From NCBI GenBank assembly GCA_946493765.1, contig CAMMAZ010000017.1, forward strand, positions 1-41,968: a stretch of 41,968 nt of DNA, written 5' to 3'. Below are positions 8,340 through 22,936 of this stretch, one piece after another. A model generated the notes under the pieces. It worked only from the letters and a program-made list of their open reading frames with translations, did no database searches and had not been told where the DNA came from. How positions within the stretch are numbered: the first letter of the stretch is position 1; each line of letters begins with the position of its first letter. This DNA is from an uncultured Clostridia bacterium. GTDB lineage: Bacteria > Bacillota > Clostridia > Oscillospirales > Acutalibacteraceae. The translations under genes and the position numbers were made by a program.

Positions 8340-9524
8340 TTATTGCGAGGGCTGTTTGATATAAAACACGTCGAGTACCAGCTCTAAAAGCTGCGTTTCA
8401 TCGGCATAAAATTCAGCAAATCCGTCTTCACCTTTCACCACTTCTCCCGGTACCGACAAAAAGGACAGATCGATATCTTTGTTATTGGAAAACACATTTG
8501 TCGTGATATAGGTGATTTTAGATGCGGTGAGAGAGGTGGAGCAATATTCCGCAGCGGCGTTGAAAATATCCAGCGGTACGTTTAAATCCGCTTTTGTCGC
8601 CTCAATACATTTTGTAGAAAAGGCTTTTAAATAATTGATTTGCCGCTGCATTCTGGCGTTATTGGAATCGATCTGCGCTAAATTGCGACGGCGGACATAG
8701 GTTTGCGCCGCGTCACCATGTAGCGTGATGTTTTTTCCGGTTGGATTTCCGTTTTCATCATATTCCGGAACTGTCACGCCGCCAACCAGATCATTTAAAA
8801 CAGAAATGGCATCCATATCCATTGCAAAATAAGTGTTGATCGGTACGTTGTATAACAATCTGGAAACAGCAGTTACCGTGTTTTCCGCGCTGAGTGCAAA
8901 TCCGTCGCCATAAGCGTAGGACAGACAAAGCTGCGTTTGTTCAGTCCCCATGAATTTGCCGCTGGCAGAATAAGTTTCAATGTCGGTGATGGTATCTCTG
9001 GAGATGCTAATGACATTATATCGCTTGTTTTGGTTGTCGATCGTCAGCAGATAAATAGCGTCGGCTTGTCCGGCGGTGCCGATCACGCCGGATTCAGTAC
9101 CAAGTTCTTCTTTATCCACCCCAATGCATAGAATGCTGGTCACATCGTCGTTAAATGTATATCGCTCGCCTTTATAGGTGATGGTTTTCCCGTCGTCATC
9201 GACGTCATCAACCTGCGCGATCGTTGGCGGTTGAATGATAACGTCGTCGTAGCCGCCGAACATCTGCAGGCTGCCGCTGTAATAAAAAACGCTGAAAGTA
9301 CATCCCAACAAAATGACAAACGATAAAAGCACAGTGCTCAAAATCAAAAGCGCCTTTTGGAGCTTTGACTTTTTCTTTTTTACATGCTGTACCGGCTGCG
9401 GGAAAATCAAAGGAACTTTTTCCGACTCGGGTGCCGGTGGAATTTCATCGGAAGAGGGGGCTGAGATACCTTCCAACAGCGCCTTTAATTCATCCTCGAA
9501 ATTTTGCTTATCGGGTTGGTTCAT
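8340..9524 (-). CDS. LytR-CpsA-Psr (LCP) family glycopolymer transferase
   Basis: LCP enzymes move glycopolymers such as teichoic acids or capsule from undecaprenyl carriers to peptidoglycan, or to proteins in some Gram-positives, outside the membrane. This 394-aa protein has an acidic/proline-rich cytoplasmic tail, a KKKKSK stop, one transmembrane helix (about 59-85) and an LCP domain. Conserved elements are SILCIGVD, ADAIYLLTIDNQNKRYNVISISRDT, VGGVTVPE and YVRRRNL..DSNNARMQRQ. Its start overlaps the end of the sortase gene by 17 nt, so the two are cotranslated. AGGGAG lies about 13 nt before the ATG. Confidence 0.88.
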   Translation of the reverse strand: MNQPDKQNFEDELKALLEGISAPSSDEIPPAPESEKVPLIFPQPVQHVKKKKSKLQKALLILSTVLLSFVILLGCTFSVFYYSGSLQMFGGYDDVIIQPPTIAQVDDVDDDGKTITYKGERYTFNDDVTSILCIGVDKEELGTESGVIGTAGQADAIYLLTIDNQNKRYNVISISRDTITDIETYSASGKFMGTEQTQLCLSYAYGDGFALSAENTVTAVSRLLYNVPINTYFAMDMDAISVLNDLVGGVTVPEYDENGNPTGKNITLHGDAAQTYVRRRNLAQIDSNNARMQRQINYLKAFSTKCIEATKADLNVPLDIFNAAAEYCSTSLTASKITYITTNVFSNNKDIDLSFLSVPGEVVKGEDGFAEFYADETQLLELVLDVFYIKQPSQ

Positions 9525-16933: not shown

Positions 16934-19084
16934 TTACATTTGCCTAACCGGCGTTTTTTTCTTTCGTGATAAAAACCAAACCAACACCTGCAAAGCAATC
17001 CAGAAAATAGCGGCCAAGATATACAGAACGGACCGTATCTGCACGCCGTTGTAGACATGATAGACATTCATGCGGATATCCCCGCGCACATTCGTGTTAT
17101 CGATGCTGAGTTCTCCATCGTAACCGGTCAGTCGCTGGTATCGATAGGTTTCAAATGACACAGAATCTGTTTTTGCATCCCCGTCGGCGGTAATGCGCAG
17201 CGTATATCGCCGACGCCCGTCCGGCTCTATTTGCGGGAATTTTATTTTCAGCACTTTTCCCTTGATTTGTTGTTTCGTGATTTGCTGCTTGACCAATGAC
17301 TGGTGCTGATCATCCAAAATAGTGAACGTGTAGGGAGCGTCGCCATCCAGCGCCTTGCAGTAAAATTCAATGGTATCAAACGCTTTTGCGGTAAAAAATG
17401 TCTGTTCCATCGTGCGTTCTTCTTTTGCAATATCCTTCACACTTTTGGTTCCCGTTTCGTTGTTGCATTTGACCGATATGTCGGTCAGGGTGTTTTTTTG
17501 CAATGCGAAGGTAGGGTAATGGAACACCGACAATAAAACGGTCAGACAAATGCAAACAGGCATTGCAATGTGATAGATTTTCGGGAAATTCCACTTTTTT
17601 TGTCCGATGGTGGAACCACCGCTGGCGCCTAGTAAAATAACCAAAAATAAAAACGGAATGCAATAGGATTGTTTGGCTTCCCAAATCAGATAAAACAGAA
17701 TGCCGCCAAACAGTGTGATGGCCGGCAAAAACATGGTATTTTTCCATTTTCGTTTAAAAAACAGATGGACCAATGCGAAGGACGCGAGCAGATAAATGGC
17801 AAGCCGATAAGCTGTACAGTAGGTCAAAAAGGCGATATTCTGACTGCCGGCCGTGTAACGATACAGGAAGGTATAATGCTGATCCTGCTGCAATCTGGAT
17901 GCAAAATCACTGTCGCCGTCGCCCCAGGTTCTTGTGAATTTAATGAGAAGATGCCGCATGAAGGATGCTGGCGTATAGGCTTTTAAAGTTCTTTTGATTT
18001 CCGCCAGATTGGCCTGCACCTTTTCTTCCTTGGTGTCAAATTGTTTGGTGTAGCCGTTATCATCCAAATTGAGCGTTCCATCGCCATGCAGGCCCATCAT
18101 GATCCAGTGGGTGACCGGATAGGTGCTGGAGGTATCCGGACAGATTTTATAAATGGAAGCGGAAACGGAAAGATAGGTTGCGGCGGTGAAAACAAGACAG
18201 GAGGCAACGCAAAGCGCGGACTTTAAAAGCTTCTTTTTGTCTTTTGTGAGCCAAAGCAAAAGGCAGACGGCATAACCGATGCATAAAATCAAAACCACCG
18301 GACGAATAAAGTAGCCGAGCACCGCAAGAATGCCAAAGCCACCGCTTTGCGCAATCAGTTTGTATTTATTTTTTTGCCGGTAAACACAGGCGCCCAAATA
18401 GAGCACACCGCCCATCAGCGGCATGCAAAACGATAATGAATAAACCCAAGGGACGGTTAAATAAAGGATGGGATTGGCAACCGATAATGCAAGGTATTTG
18501 CACGCAAATCGGGGGTTAAACAATTTCTTGACACCCAAATAGCATAAAATCTCGCCAAGGACCAGCATCAAAGCGTTTAAAAGGATAGAGGGAAAATTGA
18601 AATTTGTGATTCCAAATCGAGATAAAATTTTATAAAACCAGACAAACACCAAAACCAGAAAGTTATTGTTGGCATAATTGCCAAAATAGGTTTGCGGCGT
18701 GGTGTCGATCTGATCGGTATTCCCCAATGCGATTGCCAGCGCCTGATCTTGCACACAAAAGCTGTCGGTCATCGGGTATACATTGAAATTGATCAGAACG
18801 ATCGCTATACCGGCAAGATAAATCAAAAATAATATAAATGTCAAACGAGATACCGATTTATCTGCTGTGTGATCGATAAACCGGCAAAGAAAAATGAAAA
18901 AAAGACAAAGGGTTCCGGCACATAAAACGGCCGCCGCAACAAGCAGAAGATTTTCCCGCAAGGCAAGGCCTTTGCGGGAAAGATCCCGATAAAAGTATAA
19001 CAGGATACAAAAAGCTGCAAGCCCGATAAAAAAAGCCGTGATCAAACAAATTGCCTTGCTGAAAATGTTTTTGCAAGCGTTCAA
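16934..19084 (-). CDS. Multi-spanning GT-C-type membrane glycosyltransferase
   Basis: A 716-aa membrane protein with about 12-13 hydrophobic helices, an extracytoplasmic domain near residues 525-685, and a final helix ending in SRKKKTPV. Architecture and context fit GT-C enzymes that take sugars from undecaprenyl-phosphate carriers and add them to envelope polymers outside the membrane (compare YfhO working with CsbB). The first outer loop holds NVYPMTDSFCVQDQ with acidic residues where GT-C catalysis usually sits. The TTG start at 19084 overlaps the upstream stop (TTGA) with GGAGGG upstream. The exact family is not certain. Confidence 0.75.
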   Translation of the reverse strand: MNACKNIFSKAICLITAFFIGLAAFCILLYFYRDLSRKGLALRENLLLVAAAVLCAGTLCLFFIFLCRFIDHTADKSVSRLTFILFLIYLAGIAIVLINFNVYPMTDSFCVQDQALAIALGNTDQIDTTPQTYFGNYANNNFLVLVFVWFYKILSRFGITNFNFPSILLNALMLVLGEILCYLGVKKLFNPRFACKYLALSVANPILYLTVPWVYSLSFCMPLMGGVLYLGACVYRQKNKYKLIAQSGGFGILAVLGYFIRPVVLILCIGYAVCLLLWLTKDKKKLLKSALCVASCLVFTAATYLSVSASIYKICPDTSSTYPVTHWIMMGLHGDGTLNLDDNGYTKQFDTKEEKVQANLAEIKRTLKAYTPASFMRHLLIKFTRTWGDGDSDFASRLQQDQHYTFLYRYTAGSQNIAFLTYCTAYRLAIYLLASFALVHLFFKRKWKNTMFLPAITLFGGILFYLIWEAKQSYCIPFLFLVILLGASGGSTIGQKKWNFPKIYHIAMPVCICLTVLLSVFHYPTFALQKNTLTDISVKCNNETGTKSVKDIAKEERTMEQTFFTAKAFDTIEFYCKALDGDAPYTFTILDDQHQSLVKQQITKQQIKGKVLKIKFPQIEPDGRRRYTLRITADGDAKTDSVSFETYRYQRLTGYDGELSIDNTNVRGDIRMNVYHVYNGVQIRSVLYILAAIFWIALQVLVWFLSRKKKTPVRQM

Positions 19085-20043
19085 TCGGCACCCTCCGTTT
19101 CTGTGTCGGTCGTTTGTTCAATGATAAAGCGGGGACGCTGTTTGGTTTCCAAATAAATTTTGCCGATGTATTCGCCGATAATGCCGATCCCTAAAAGCTG
19201 CAGACCGCCTAAAGCCCAAACCGATGTGATCAGGCTTGCCCAGCCGCTGACGGTGATCCCGATAAAATATTGTGCGACAAAAACAATCAGCATAATAATG
19301 CTGATTAAAAAACAGATCAGTCCCAGCGCCGAAATCAACCGAATCGGTTTCACGCTCAAGGACGTGATTCCTTCAAAGGCAAAGGCAAGCATTTTTTTCA
19401 AAGGATATTTGCTTTTTCCCGCAAACCGTTCGTTTCGTTCGTAATAAACCTTTGCGCTTTTAAATCCGATCATCGGAACAATGCCGCGCAAAAACAGGTT
19501 GACTTCTTTGAATGAAAGCAATTCTTTGACCGCCCTGTTGCTCAGCAGCCGGTAATCCGCATGGTTAAAAACGATTTCAACGCCCATGCTTTTCAAAAGT
19601 TTATAAAAACCTTGCGCGGTGAACCGTTTGAAGAAGCTGTCTTTTTTTCGTTTGGAACGCACGCCATAGACCACTTCGCTGCCTTTTTCATAGGCATCGA
19701 TCATTTGATCGATTGCGTTAATGTCATCCTGCAAATCGGCGTCCATGGAAACCACGGCGTCCGCTTTATCTACAGCATAGCTCAGCCCCGCCAAAAGCGC
19801 ATTCTGATGCCCGCAGTTGCGCGAGAGCTTCACGCCCTCAAAATGGGGATTTTTCCGGCTGATCGCTTGAATCTGCGACCATGTATCGTCACCGGAGCCG
19901 TCGTCGACATAAATTACCTTGCTGTCGCCGGTTATTTTTTCTTTTTGTTTTAAGCCCTCTAACTTTTGACACAGCCGTTTGGTCGTTTCAGGCAGAACAT
20001 CGCTTTCGTTGTAACAGGGAACAACAATATAAATCCTTTTCAC
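19081..20043 (-). CDS. GT2 polyprenyl-phosphate glycosyltransferase (GtrB/CsbB-like)
   Basis: A 320-aa membrane-associated enzyme, predicted to load a sugar from a nucleotide donor onto undecaprenyl phosphate on the cytoplasmic side. The N-terminal GT-A domain has YIVVPCYNESDVL, VIYVDDGSGDDTW, LSRNCGHQNALLAGL and the donor-binding VSMDADLQDD. Two C-terminal helices (about 233-255 and 268-290) end in GEYIGKIYLETKQRPRF, as in GtrB, CsbB and DPM-type enzymes. The start is GTG at 20043 with a poor SD. It forms a translationally coupled pair with the GT-C gene and lies just downstream of the invertible-promoter structure. Confidence 0.9.
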   Translation of the reverse strand: MKRIYIVVPCYNESDVLPETTKRLCQKLEGLKQKEKITGDSKVIYVDDGSGDDTWSQIQAISRKNPHFEGVKLSRNCGHQNALLAGLSYAVDKADAVVSMDADLQDDINAIDQMIDAYEKGSEVVYGVRSKRKKDSFFKRFTAQGFYKLLKSMGVEIVFNHADYRLLSNRAVKELLSFKEVNLFLRGIVPMIGFKSAKVYYERNERFAGKSKYPLKKMLAFAFEGITSLSVKPIRLISALGLICFLISIIMLIVFVAQYFIGITVSGWASLITSVWALGGLQLLGIGIIGEYIGKIYLETKQRPRFIIEQTTDTETEGAD

Positions 20044-20071
20044 TTCAACACCGCTTTCTTTTTTGCATGAA

Positions 20072-20094
20072 CAACAAAATATCCGTTATGTTGT
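20072..20094 (+). repeat. Left 23-bp inverted repeat (IRL)
   Basis: Begins CAACAAAATATCCGTTATG and is the exact reverse complement of 20300-20322. It ends 28 nt upstream of the GT2 start codon. Flanking bases on both sides do not continue the match, so the repeat is sharply bounded at 23 bp. Confidence 0.9.
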
Positions 20095-20119
20095 AAACAG
20101 ACACAAATTTACCTATTAT

Positions 20120-20147
20120 ATTATATCTGATTTTCAAAAAAAGTCAA
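20120..20147 (-). promoter_or_regulatory. Promoter inside the invertible segment, facing GT2
   Basis: The minus strand reads TTGACT (20142-20147), 16 nt, TATAAT (20120-20125). Transcription would start near 20113 and run through IRL into the GT2 gene. A weaker plus-strand candidate (TTGCGT 20242-20247, 18 nt, TTTAAT 20266-20271) points the other way. Confidence 0.7.
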
Positions 20148-20191
20148 TAAACGTGAACTTTCGCTTTCACAATCTCATATTTCTACATAGC

Positions 20192-20243
20192 AAACAGCCT
20201 TTTCCCGGTTTGTCAATTTACAAAAGAAGAAAAGGCTTGTTTT
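20192..20243. terminator. Hairpin inside the invertible segment
   Basis: GCCTTTTC (20197-20204) pairs with GAAAAGGC (20229-20236), with partly paired flanks. The loop holds a second small stem (TTTGT/ACAAA). It lies upstream of the GT2-facing promoter and may insulate it from recombinase-side transcription. The T-tract is short. Confidence 0.4.
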
Positions 20244-20299
20244 GCGTGCATGAATAGAAAAATATTTTAATCATATGCCTTATGTGGTCAGCGGCGACT

Positions 20300-20322
20300 A
20301 CAACATAACGGATATTTTGTTG
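20300..20322 (-). repeat. Right 23-bp inverted repeat (IRR)
   Basis: The exact reverse complement of the left repeat at 20072-20094. It lies 49 nt from the 3' end of the tyrosine recombinase gene. Confidence 0.9.
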
Positions 20323-20371
20323 CACACGGTGTTCGACGGCAGGGGACTGTCGTTTTTTGTTTTGCGGATTT

Positions 20372-21213
20372 TTATAGAATCAGGTGCAGATTGTTTATTT
20401 TTTGCCGGTGTTCCGCACCGGTGGTGATGATGTAAATGCGGGTGGTATTGATGTTGCTGTGCCCCAAAACATCCGCGAGCTTTGCAATGTCATGTTCTGT
20501 GCTGTAAAACGTGCGGGCAAAGAGATGGCGCAGGTTGTGGGGGAAGACCTTTTGCGGGGAAATACCCGCTTTTTCGCATAATGCTTTCATCTCCCGCCAG
20601 ATGTTGCACCGGTTCAACGGCTGTCCACTTCTTGTAATAAACAACGGACCTTCGGTGATTTGTCGTTCTTTTGCATAACGCTGCAGGCTTTTTTGCAAGC
20701 GTACCGGCAAAAGACAATTCTGGTTTTTCCTTTGCAGGTGACAACCGCTTGTCCGACATGTGCTGCCTGCACGGTAATGCACTGCAGTTCGCTGACCCGG
20801 ATGCCTGTTGCGCAAATCGTCTGTAAAAGCAGATATAACCGCTGATTTTTGCCTACCTTTGCAGCCTGCACCAGGCGAAGATATTCCGTTTTGTTCAGTT
20901 CTTTTTGTTCCGACCGGTAAATCTGCCGTTGTATGCGCAGGTGTCGCACACAATAAGCAGGCTTTTTTAAAAATCGCAGATAACAGTTGAGAGAGACTAG
21001 CATGGAATTGACACTGGCGACGGCATATTGTGTTTGCAGCAGATTTTTATATTCCAAAATCAATGATTTTTCAATTTTCCGGTTTGCGGCAAAGCGGTAA
21101 AACTGCCGGATATCCCGCAGATATTTTTCAATGGTCGCCGGACTTTTTTCCTGCTGCATGAGCTGCTTTTGAAAGGATAAAAGCAGTGTGGCACAGTTTC
21201 TTGATTGTTTCAT
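20372..21213 (-). pseudogene. Tyrosine recombinase (XerC/D-like), interrupted by a frameshift
   Basis: Site-specific recombinase, probably the invertase for the adjacent inverted repeats. The N-terminal SAM-like core-binding domain (QKQLMQQEKSPATIEKYLRDIRQFYRFA) and first catalytic Arg (CATGIRVSEL) lie in one frame up to about 20715. The rest lies in the -1 frame: LQKSLQRYAKERQ, HNLRH (His, Arg), LGHSNINTTRIYI (His, Tyr). All catalytic residues are present, and restoring one base gives about 280 aa, the normal length. The start at 21213 has GGAGGAG. One base appears lost near the GGCAAAAGAC at 20706-20715. It could be a real inactivation or a sequencing/assembly error. Confidence 0.8.
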
Positions 21214-21351
21214 TTTTCTCCTCCGATAAAAGTATTGCCAATTATTTTTTATACATCCTGTTTTTGGACATAACAAAAGGCATTATTTATTGTAACGAAT
21301 TTTTTTGCATATATGACAAGGTATACAATTTCATTGCAGACATCTTGCGGA

Positions 21352-21819: not shown

Positions 21820-22557
21820 ATGGATCAGCAACGTTTTTTAGAAGCATGTGAACAGATCATCCAAAAAGAACGGGCAACCCGCGGTATTGGTACGTTGGGG
21901 GAAAAAACGCTGCATGCTGTTCTAAAACAGTATTTTGAACCGGACGTCAACAGTCAGGAAGTGAAAGTTGGCGGCTATGTTGCGGATATTGTCGGGGAAA
22001 ATGGAATCATTGAGATCCAAACGGCTAATTTTAACCGCCTGCGCGATAAATTGACCGCTTTTTTGGAATGCGCACATGTCACGGTCGTTTATCCGATACC
22101 GGCGGTAAAATGGCTGTGCTGGATCGATCCGGAAACGCAGCAAATCAGCAAAAAAAGAAAAAGTCCCCGCAAAGGCACGGTTTATGATGCCTTTACGGAG
22201 CTTTACAAAATTAAATCTTTTTTAAAGCATGAAAATCTGACCCTTTGTTTTGTGCTGCTGGAGCTGGAGGAATACCGGATTTTAAACGGCTGGAGCAAAG
22301 ATCGGAAAAAAGGTTCCCACCGCGAAGAACGCATTCCGGTGGCGCTGCTTGACGAGATTTACATTCATCGTCCGTCCGATTACCGGGTGTGCGTTCCAAA
22401 GGAACTACCGACACAATTCACGGTGAAGGATTATGCGAAAGCTGCAAAAATCAGCCTTTCTGCAGCCGGAACAGCGCTGCATGTTTTGAACGCTGCCGGG
22501 GCTGTTTTAAGAACCGGCAAGCAGGGGAGAAGCTATTTATATCAGTCGCTTGTGTGA
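21820..22557 (+). CDS. Unknown protein, possible PD-(D/E)XK-like fold with C-terminal HTH
   Basis: No family recognised with certainty. The 245-aa protein has an N-terminal arrangement Glu28 (GEKTLH), Asp56 (GGYVADI), Glu65-Ile-Gln67 (IIEIQTANF), resembling the E...D...ExQ variant of PD-(D/E)XK nuclease cores. The middle (VTVVYPIPAVKWLCWIDPETQQISKKRKSPRKG) is basic. The last 50 residues (FTVKDYAKAAKISLSAAGTALHVLNAAGAVLRTGKQGRSYLY) look like a winged HTH. It follows the GNAT gene by 17 nt and has a weak GGGAAAAAGAG SD. A nuclease or regulatory role is inference only. Confidence 0.6.
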   Translation: MDQQRFLEACEQIIQKERATRGIGTLGEKTLHAVLKQYFEPDVNSQEVKVGGYVADIVGENGIIEIQTANFNRLRDKLTAFLECAHVTVVYPIPAVKWLCWIDPETQQISKKRKSPRKGTVYDAFTELYKIKSFLKHENLTLCFVLLELEEYRILNGWSKDRKKGSHREERIPVALLDEIYIHRPSDYRVCVPKELPTQFTVKDYAKAAKISLSAAGTALHVLNAAGAVLRTGKQGRSYLYQSLV

Positions 22558-22860: not shown

Positions 22861-22936
22861 TGGCCCGCCCAAGAGGATTTGAACCCCTATCGTCGGAATC
22901 GGAATCCGATGTTTTATCCAGTTAGACTATGGGCGG
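22861..22936 (-). tRNA. tRNA-Arg (anticodon CCG)
   Basis: A 76-nt cloverleaf on the minus strand. The acceptor stem is CCGCCCA/TGGGCGG, the discriminator is G and CCA is encoded. The anticodon arm is TCGGA-TTCCGAT-TCCGA, giving anticodon CCG, which reads the CGG codon. The T arm is AGGGG-TTCAAAT-CCTCT, with one G-U pair. The D arm contains AACTGGATA. It lies about 50 nt downstream of secF and upstream of a terminator. Confidence 0.95.

Follow-up and report, generated by a model that had tools for sequence, protein, structure and literature searches.

Organization of the locus

The window, by which we mean the entire 41,968-nucleotide stretch analyzed here, contains two inverted repeats of 24 nt each, 100% complementary to one another, which enclose a 203-bp segment (20096-20298) situated between a pair of glycosyltransferase genes and a tyrosine recombinase gene. 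The distal repeat (20072-20095, with an 18-bp core site at 20074-20091) is on the side of the glycosyltransferase genes, hereafter referred to as the cargo, and the proximal repeat (20299-20322, core site at 20303-20320) is on the side of the recombinase. A preliminary description of this DNA had correctly noted perfect inverted repeats at this position, but had measured them as 23 nt with 205 nt between them. No further copy of the 24-bp repeat with up to three mismatches is found in the rest of the window, none of 100 dinucleotide shuffles of the sequence yields a match, and a search of viral contigs returned 0 matches. In its own genome, the stretch from 19990 to 20420 is present as a single copy and in one orientation only. 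Inverted repeats around a short segment, as found here, are characteristic of invertons, and the segment is predicted to invert; homologous segments occur in both orientations among relatives.

Both cargo genes are on the minus strand. The first encodes a 320-aa GT2 glycosyltransferase (19081-20043) that is predicted to be an undecaprenyl-phosphate-sugar synthase, and the second, which overlaps it by 4 nt, encodes a 716-aa membrane protein (16934-19084) with a predicted GT-C fold and a C-terminal beta domain. Within the segment, a predicted promoter on the minus strand (TTGACT-16-TATAAT; 20147-20120) points toward the GT2 start at 20043, which is the ON orientation. This sigma-70-like element agrees with the consensus at 11 of 12 positions and ranks first among 11 sites in 3.5 kb, against 6.4 +/- 2.5 sites of any quality in shuffled sequence. 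The segment thus has a promoter facing a gene, another hallmark of invertons, as judged by sequence prediction. Upstream of the promoter is a hairpin (20196-20237) that is predicted to insulate the cargo against readthrough. A second, terminator-like hairpin with a T tract (20334-20354, plus strand) sits between the proximal repeat and the recombinase gene and reads back toward the latter; it is the predicted stop for a transcript that starts from the flipped promoter. Both the cargo-facing promoter and the internal hairpin had been described previously and are borne out.

A frameshifted recombinase gene

The recombinase gene, also on the minus strand, is split over two open reading frames. 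Its N-terminal part (20719-21213, up to the frameshift) is contained in a frame spanning 20614-21276, and its C-terminal part (20372-20718) lies in a different frame, spanning 20372-20953. Relative to intact homologues, the lesion is a net 1-nt deletion near 20714-20718, and the spacing of the two aligned parts is 5 nt in the window as opposed to 6 nt in two homologues (L040 and L041). The N-terminal part matches Phage_int_SAM_1 and the start of Phage_integrase, and the other frame matches the rest of Phage_integrase. The arginine of a GIRVSEL motif in the former, together with the HxxR box (HNLRH) and the tyrosine of RIY in the latter, are what we take to be the catalytic boxes. An inverton is expected to have a site-specific recombinase encoded beside its segment; here the gene is in place but frameshifted, and so departs from the intact open reading frame that characterizes the recombinase family described below; an intact paralogue is encoded elsewhere in the genome, on contig C15. 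An earlier claim that the locus possesses all three of recombinase, repeats and target operon consequently holds for the repeats and the operon and was overstated for the recombinase.

It is possible, if unlikely, that the locus is a fully active switch served in cis, the recombinase being whole in the living population and the frameshift reflecting either an error of assembly or consensus or an allele carried by a minority. Apart from the single frameshift, both parts of the gene are free of stops and retain their catalytic boxes, and intact genes are the rule in this family, an internal stop being found in one other (G158) of its 61 best matches; both observations are consistent with such a reading. 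Arguing against it is the protein database, in which a truncated form of 199 aa is on record in a cluster of 4 members from 2 contigs, although independence of these two contigs cannot be claimed. Among the best 120 of 6,041 protein matches, this truncated form is the only close one, the next beginning at 57-58% identity, and a close full-length form is absent from the same 120.

Linkage of the recombinase family to inverted repeats

Similar loci can be found in many other genomes. A profile (A1) built from eight intact recombinase homologues matches 86 stretches in 53 of 300 genomes of the same family at 1e-40, of which the 61 best were fetched; three genomes of the same genus gave no match at this threshold. 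A scan of named genomes confirmed at least 586 loci, and the best 80 were kept. These are mostly labeled as Clostridia, Oscillospiraceae or Ruminococcus MAGs, with a handful of isolates (e.g., Hespellia stercorisuis DSM 15480 and a Holdemania strain), and the window's own species is not among them. Two sets of loci were then compared: set 1, with 62 members, consists of the 61 best A1 stretches (the C15 paralogue among them) and the window, and set 2, with 68 members, consists of the best 80 named-genome loci minus 12 already in set 1.

An inverted pair with a core site is present at 94 of these 130 loci (42 in set 1 and 52 in set 2). Another 25 (13 and 12, respectively) have no pair and a contig that ends within 450 bp downstream, and 11 have no pair for other reasons (L100, L109, L127, L128, L131, L134, L136, L167, L169, L187 and L193). 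The range scanned for the proximal arm was up to 400 bp in the first set and up to 150 bp in the second. A uniform scan with a score cut-off and one range for all detected a pair following the recombinase at 87 of the 94 loci for which at least 950 bp of downstream sequence is available; at control places, the counts were 2 of 68 (5′ side) and 2 of 84 (another 2 kb along). The segments are 195-431 bp long (median 240), and their median distance from the end of the recombinase match is 30 bp. This family-wide linkage with its controls, together with the empty shuffles of the window sequence, makes it highly improbable that the repeats arose by chance or serve a structural role without recombining, for instance as a cruciform or a terminator pair, even though AT-rich intergenic DNA would in general be expected to favor repeats.

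A conserved core site with variable spacers

Before core sites were counted, five loci whose best repeat lacked the core or contained a run of N were left out (L100, L127 and L136 in set 1, L167 and L193 in set 2), as was L104, whose recombinase stretch is identical to that of L103. In all 93 distinct loci scored, both arms bear ACATAA-N6-TTATGT or a variant thereof, the threshold being a match at 16 or more of the 24 half-site positions of the two arms. The arms of the window conform to this family pattern, with one half-site variant each and an identical spacer. When the two arms within a locus are compared, the 93 loci show 24 mismatches in the half-sites and none in the spacers. There are 61 spacer types across these loci, none of which is palindromic, and the information content at the four middle spacer positions is 0.06-0.25 bits (42 set-1 loci). 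Inversion by a tyrosine recombinase needs crossover regions that are matched and asymmetric. The spacers, being matched between arms and non-palindromic, fit these needs.

Two loci of one genome never share a spacer in the scored set (0 of 12 locus pairs), compared with 58 of 4,266 pairs between genomes, counts that are too small to prove a private-spacer "barcode" within genomes. Contigs C58 and C136 of one genome (G238) do share the spacer TTGTCA, the latter contig ending at its site and lying outside the scored set. In all, TTGTCA is seen in this genome on four contigs (C21, C25, C58 and C136), two of them at the contig end; exchange between loci and assembly breaks are both possible reasons. 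A further variation is a tandem double recombination site on the recombinase side, which was observed at G298:C44:12517-12836, G115:C10:5346-5738, G010:C1:69023-69081 and L219.

A sister switch in the same genome

The genome of the window contains a second switch of the same family (C15:34071-35215; L035:2572-3716), with an intact 281-aa recombinase and 20-bp repeats. Its predicted promoter is directed away from the cargo (OFF), which here consists of genes for a zinc-ribbon-like protein and a lipoprotein-like NPCBM/TPR protein. A search of the genome with the pattern ACAWAA-N6-TTWTGT returned 11 sites, compared with 5 for the backward control, and these form pairs only on C15 and C17; no orphan site pair was found elsewhere in the genome with this pattern. 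The same holds for 20 relatives, in none of which did a search for the exact site, which variants would escape, reveal a pair apart from a family recombinase. Because exact site pairs away from a recombinase are absent from these relatives, action in trans does not seem to be the family's habit.

These observations bear on the possibility that the window locus is a frozen relic, in which the recombinase is dead, the promoter is fixed ON and the glycosyltransferase pair is made all the time. We consider this reading doubtful but a serious contender: it would account for the frameshift, and the lack of orphan site pairs in the 20 relatives and in the window's own genome suggests that service in trans would be unusual. 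Against it, both repeats are still perfect, 11 of their 12 half-site positions agree with the intact C15 switch, and a paralogue able to act, the intact 281-aa enzyme, is present. This paralogue may still flip the window switch in trans. Overall, we think it quite probable that the window carries an invertible promoter, and that it is likely to be held in the ON state, because the adjacent recombinase gene is frameshifted, unless the intact C15 paralogue acts on the segment.

Inversion between relatives

The clearest comparison is between loci L083 and L084, in which the recombinase and cargo are collinear and the segment is inverted exactly between the repeats. When all segments were compared, 29 pairs could be aligned over at least 60% of the shorter segment, of which 8 are inverted and 21 are not, pairs that are not independent of one another. 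Three of the eight inverted pairs share their cargo in the same orientation (L083/L084, L185/L199 and L199/L208), and the cargo of the other five is without a match. The preliminary description had proposed an invertible promoter, captured ON, with the GT2/GT-C pair as its target, a proposal that would have been undermined had the repeats not been kept with the recombinase and had no flipped relative existed. Family segments in both orientations between unchanged flanks instead favor the switch, at the level of the family and in related species, and thereby support the proposal by comparison.

Contig ends are also distributed unevenly around these loci. In set 1, the contig stops no more than 400 bp downstream of the recombinase at 14 of 62 loci, and in set 2 at 14 of 68; the corresponding counts for the 400 bp upstream are 1 of 62 and 1 of 68 (Fisher p 0.0005 for set 1). 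Conceivably, mixed orientations in a sample would break assemblies downstream of the recombinase, as repeated sequence could too.

Promoter, hairpin and terminator layout in the family

The direction of the promoter was scored in 90 segments of at most 330 bp, in which close scores were treated as unclear. By this prediction, the promoter is directed away from the cargo in 45 segments and toward it in 19, the window included, with 26 unclear. By raw count, the strongest hairpin lies upstream of the predicted promoter in 63 of the 64 callable segments, as it does in the window. The sole exception is L083, which is called ON in the all-segment scoring and unclear in another scoring, and whose ON call is probably a miscall.

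A terminator-like hairpin facing back toward the recombinase is found at 55 of the 75 loci with at least 15 nt between the recombinase end and the repeat, and one in the sense direction at 2 of 75. Since 88 of 225 shuffles of the same stretches also give a back-facing hairpin, this count is too weak to stand by itself. Among the 70 of 75 loci listed, the stem of the hairpin is a copy of the repeat at L087 and L205. It could be that the back-facing terminator keeps the transcript of the OFF orientation from running antisense through the recombinase gene.

An alternative account of the locus, which we regard as very unlikely, is that there is no promoter switch and that the recombinase and repeats are what is left of an element that once integrated or was resolved, i.e., an integrase with its attachment sites. 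The closest named models for the window recombinase are XerA/XerD-like, and enzymes of this kind serve integration and chromosome resolution as well. Nevertheless, inverted arms with matched, non-palindromic spacers occur in 93 of 93 scored loci, inversions among relatives lie between unchanged flanks, and a promoter-like site and a hairpin reside in fixed order within the segment, none of which is readily reconciled with such a remnant. The window is more simply placed in a widespread, mostly clostridial family of recombinase-linked invertible promoters, of which, to judge from its sequence, it appears to be a member caught ON.

In the invertible-promoter reading, each repeat would constitute a tyrosine-recombinase site, composed of two ACATAA-like half-sites separated by a 6-bp crossover spacer, the same in either arm, and recombination between the arms would turn the segment around. 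In the ON orientation, the promoter would face the cargo and transcribe the GT2 and GT-C genes. In the OFF orientation, transcription from the turned promoter would instead proceed toward the recombinase until it met the terminator-like hairpin that lies just past the proximal repeat, with the internal hairpin preventing readthrough from reaching the cargo. The GT2 enzyme would load a sugar onto undecaprenyl phosphate, and the GT-C protein would pass this sugar to a surface polymer or protein.

The glycosyltransferase cargo

By comparison with sequences of solved enzymes, the GT2 protein is related to sll0501 (5.5e-57) and to ArnC enzymes. Among NCBIfam models it is nearest to PgfS, with a score of 258.3 bits that does not pass the cut-off of 500. 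For the 716-aa protein, no Pfam family was matched at E 1e-3 in the copy scanned, a precomputed Pfam accession (PF27792) is listed for it, its sole NCBIfam match, to the XrtG-associated glycosyltransferase TIGR03766, is below the cut-off, and no sequence of a solved structure was matched. Its predicted model (mean pLDDT 92.4) has ArnT as its best fold match, a weak one (E 1.5e-4, TM-scores 0.26 and 0.33) and the only one at E <= 0.001, followed in the ranking by oligosaccharyltransferases, AglB and other GT-C enzymes with modest scores. Thus, the modeled protein looks like a GT-C membrane enzyme, albeit on modest scores. The more specific likening of the pair to CsbB/YfhO made at the outset is not upheld, given a partner with no Pfam family at 1e-3 and TIGR03766 as its only NCBIfam match.

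The same genome has a second GT2/GT-C pair on contig C14 (L151:3538-6521), with proteins 77% and 43% identical to those of the window, and a third GT-C relative on contig C26. No repeat pair was found at the C14 pair, which resides in a run with genes for dockerin-bearing secreted proteins, one of which has a GDSL esterase domain; this context hints that such GT2/GT-C pairs may glycosylate secreted proteins. GT2 homologues are also found in two other genomes (G001 and G002, at loci L010 and L037), neither of which yielded a pair in the repeat scan. The window pair, for its part, likely decorates a surface protein or polymer.

The cargo of the family at large is varied. In a tblastn search of 141 other loci, neither the GT2 nor the GT-C protein had a match at 1e-5 or at 1e-3, and the C14 paralogue, the positive control of the 1e-3 search, was found; the loci searched for cargo extend a median of 3,691 bases past the distal repeat, and at least 1,000 bases in 81 of 92. 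The first genes behind the distal repeat differ from locus to locus. Of 20 scanned with Pfam, 4 are without a match, and the others include collagen, SpaA/VWA, LRR, Ig-like, LicD and SPFH matches, as well as signal peptidase, TetR, GGDEF, metallophosphatase and HNH domains. By a crude test, 45 of 86 first cargo genes encode a hydrophobic N-terminal stretch.

Relation to known systems

The fimS switch of Escherichia coli has shorter repeats than the window and relies on host factors. In extracts of the published accounts, it resembles the window in having its promoter within the segment and tyrosine recombinases encoded alongside (PMC2784873; PMC7446863), and differs in its unrelated cargo and in Rho-dependent termination after fimE, as opposed to the intrinsic-type hairpin predicted here (PMC2784873; PMC7446863). 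Rho-dependent termination has also been described for a Clostridioides difficile switch, according to an extract of the same literature (PMC7446863). The cwpV switch of C. difficile, as portrayed in extracts, is similar to the window in its segment of ~200 bp, inverted repeats of ~21 bp, XerC/XerD-family recombinase and surface target; unlike the window, it has a promoter external to the segment, an OFF transcript in which a terminator forms, and a distant recombinase gene, recV, that acts on several loci (PMC2784873; PMC5903667). Invertible promoters for Bacteroides capsule loci are mentioned in a review (PMC12355684).

A further comparison is with inverton group 139 of a defined gut community (Microbiome 2025), in which, according to part of that account, 32 of 33 invertible segments are from Clostridia and which is significantly linked to a nearby tyrosine-type recombinase/integrase, invertase group 35 (PMC11892184). 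Judged by their description, the two groups may be the same family as that of the window or a sister to it. The same part of the account gives no repeat motif and makes no mention of private spacers, a back-facing terminator or a glycosyltransferase-pair cargo (PMC11892184). Among the open-licence titles and openings of abstracts listed, none describes a family of this kind with private spacers or with a terminator that faces back.

Among glycosylation systems, the pgf operon of Streptococcus mutans, as described in an extract, is comparable in that the window GT2 is nearest to PgfS and a membrane glycosyltransferase-like protein is encoded alongside; it differs in having four genes rather than two, the window GT2 falls below the PgfS cut-off, and the abstract of that account does not refer to phase control (PMC5856776). 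The pair also resembles lipid-linked sugar transfer of the GtrB/ArnC and ArnT type in the sll0501/ArnC matches of its GT2 and the ArnT fold match of its partner, from which it differs in the weakness of that fold match.

Bacteroidota and C. difficile have been the subject of much work on promoter inversion, and the mostly uncultured Clostridia of the herbivore and human gut have received less attention. A searchable site, ACATAA-N6-TTATGT beside a recognizable recombinase, would permit such switches to be listed and called ON or OFF from assemblies, and would let anyone ask whether surface glycosylation is switched. The broken recombinase of the window and its intact paralogue on C15 pose the questions of whether one recombinase can serve a second switch and whether the private spacer separates loci.

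More tentatively, and at somewhat less than even confidence, we propose that these loci represent a portable phase-switch cassette spread across gut Clostridia with private 6-bp barcodes, the window cassette being either frozen ON or run from C15. Such a cassette would consist, in order, of the recombinase, back-facing terminator, repeat, hairpin, promoter and second repeat, followed by almost any surface gene. Common half-sites combined with a spacer particular to each locus would allow several switches to operate in one cell without cross-recombination. The window cassette would have captured a surface-glycosylation pair and lost its own recombinase, and, if so, would constitute a natural experiment on whether barcodes suffice by themselves to separate loci.

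Other genes of the window include a 245-aa reading frame upstream of the recombinase (21820-22557, plus strand) with no Pfam or NCBIfam match, a gene for a LytR-CpsA-Psr family protein of the kind involved in cell-wall polymer attachment (8340-9524, minus strand) and a tRNA-Arg (CCG) gene (22861-22936, minus strand) ~1.6 kb from the recombinase.
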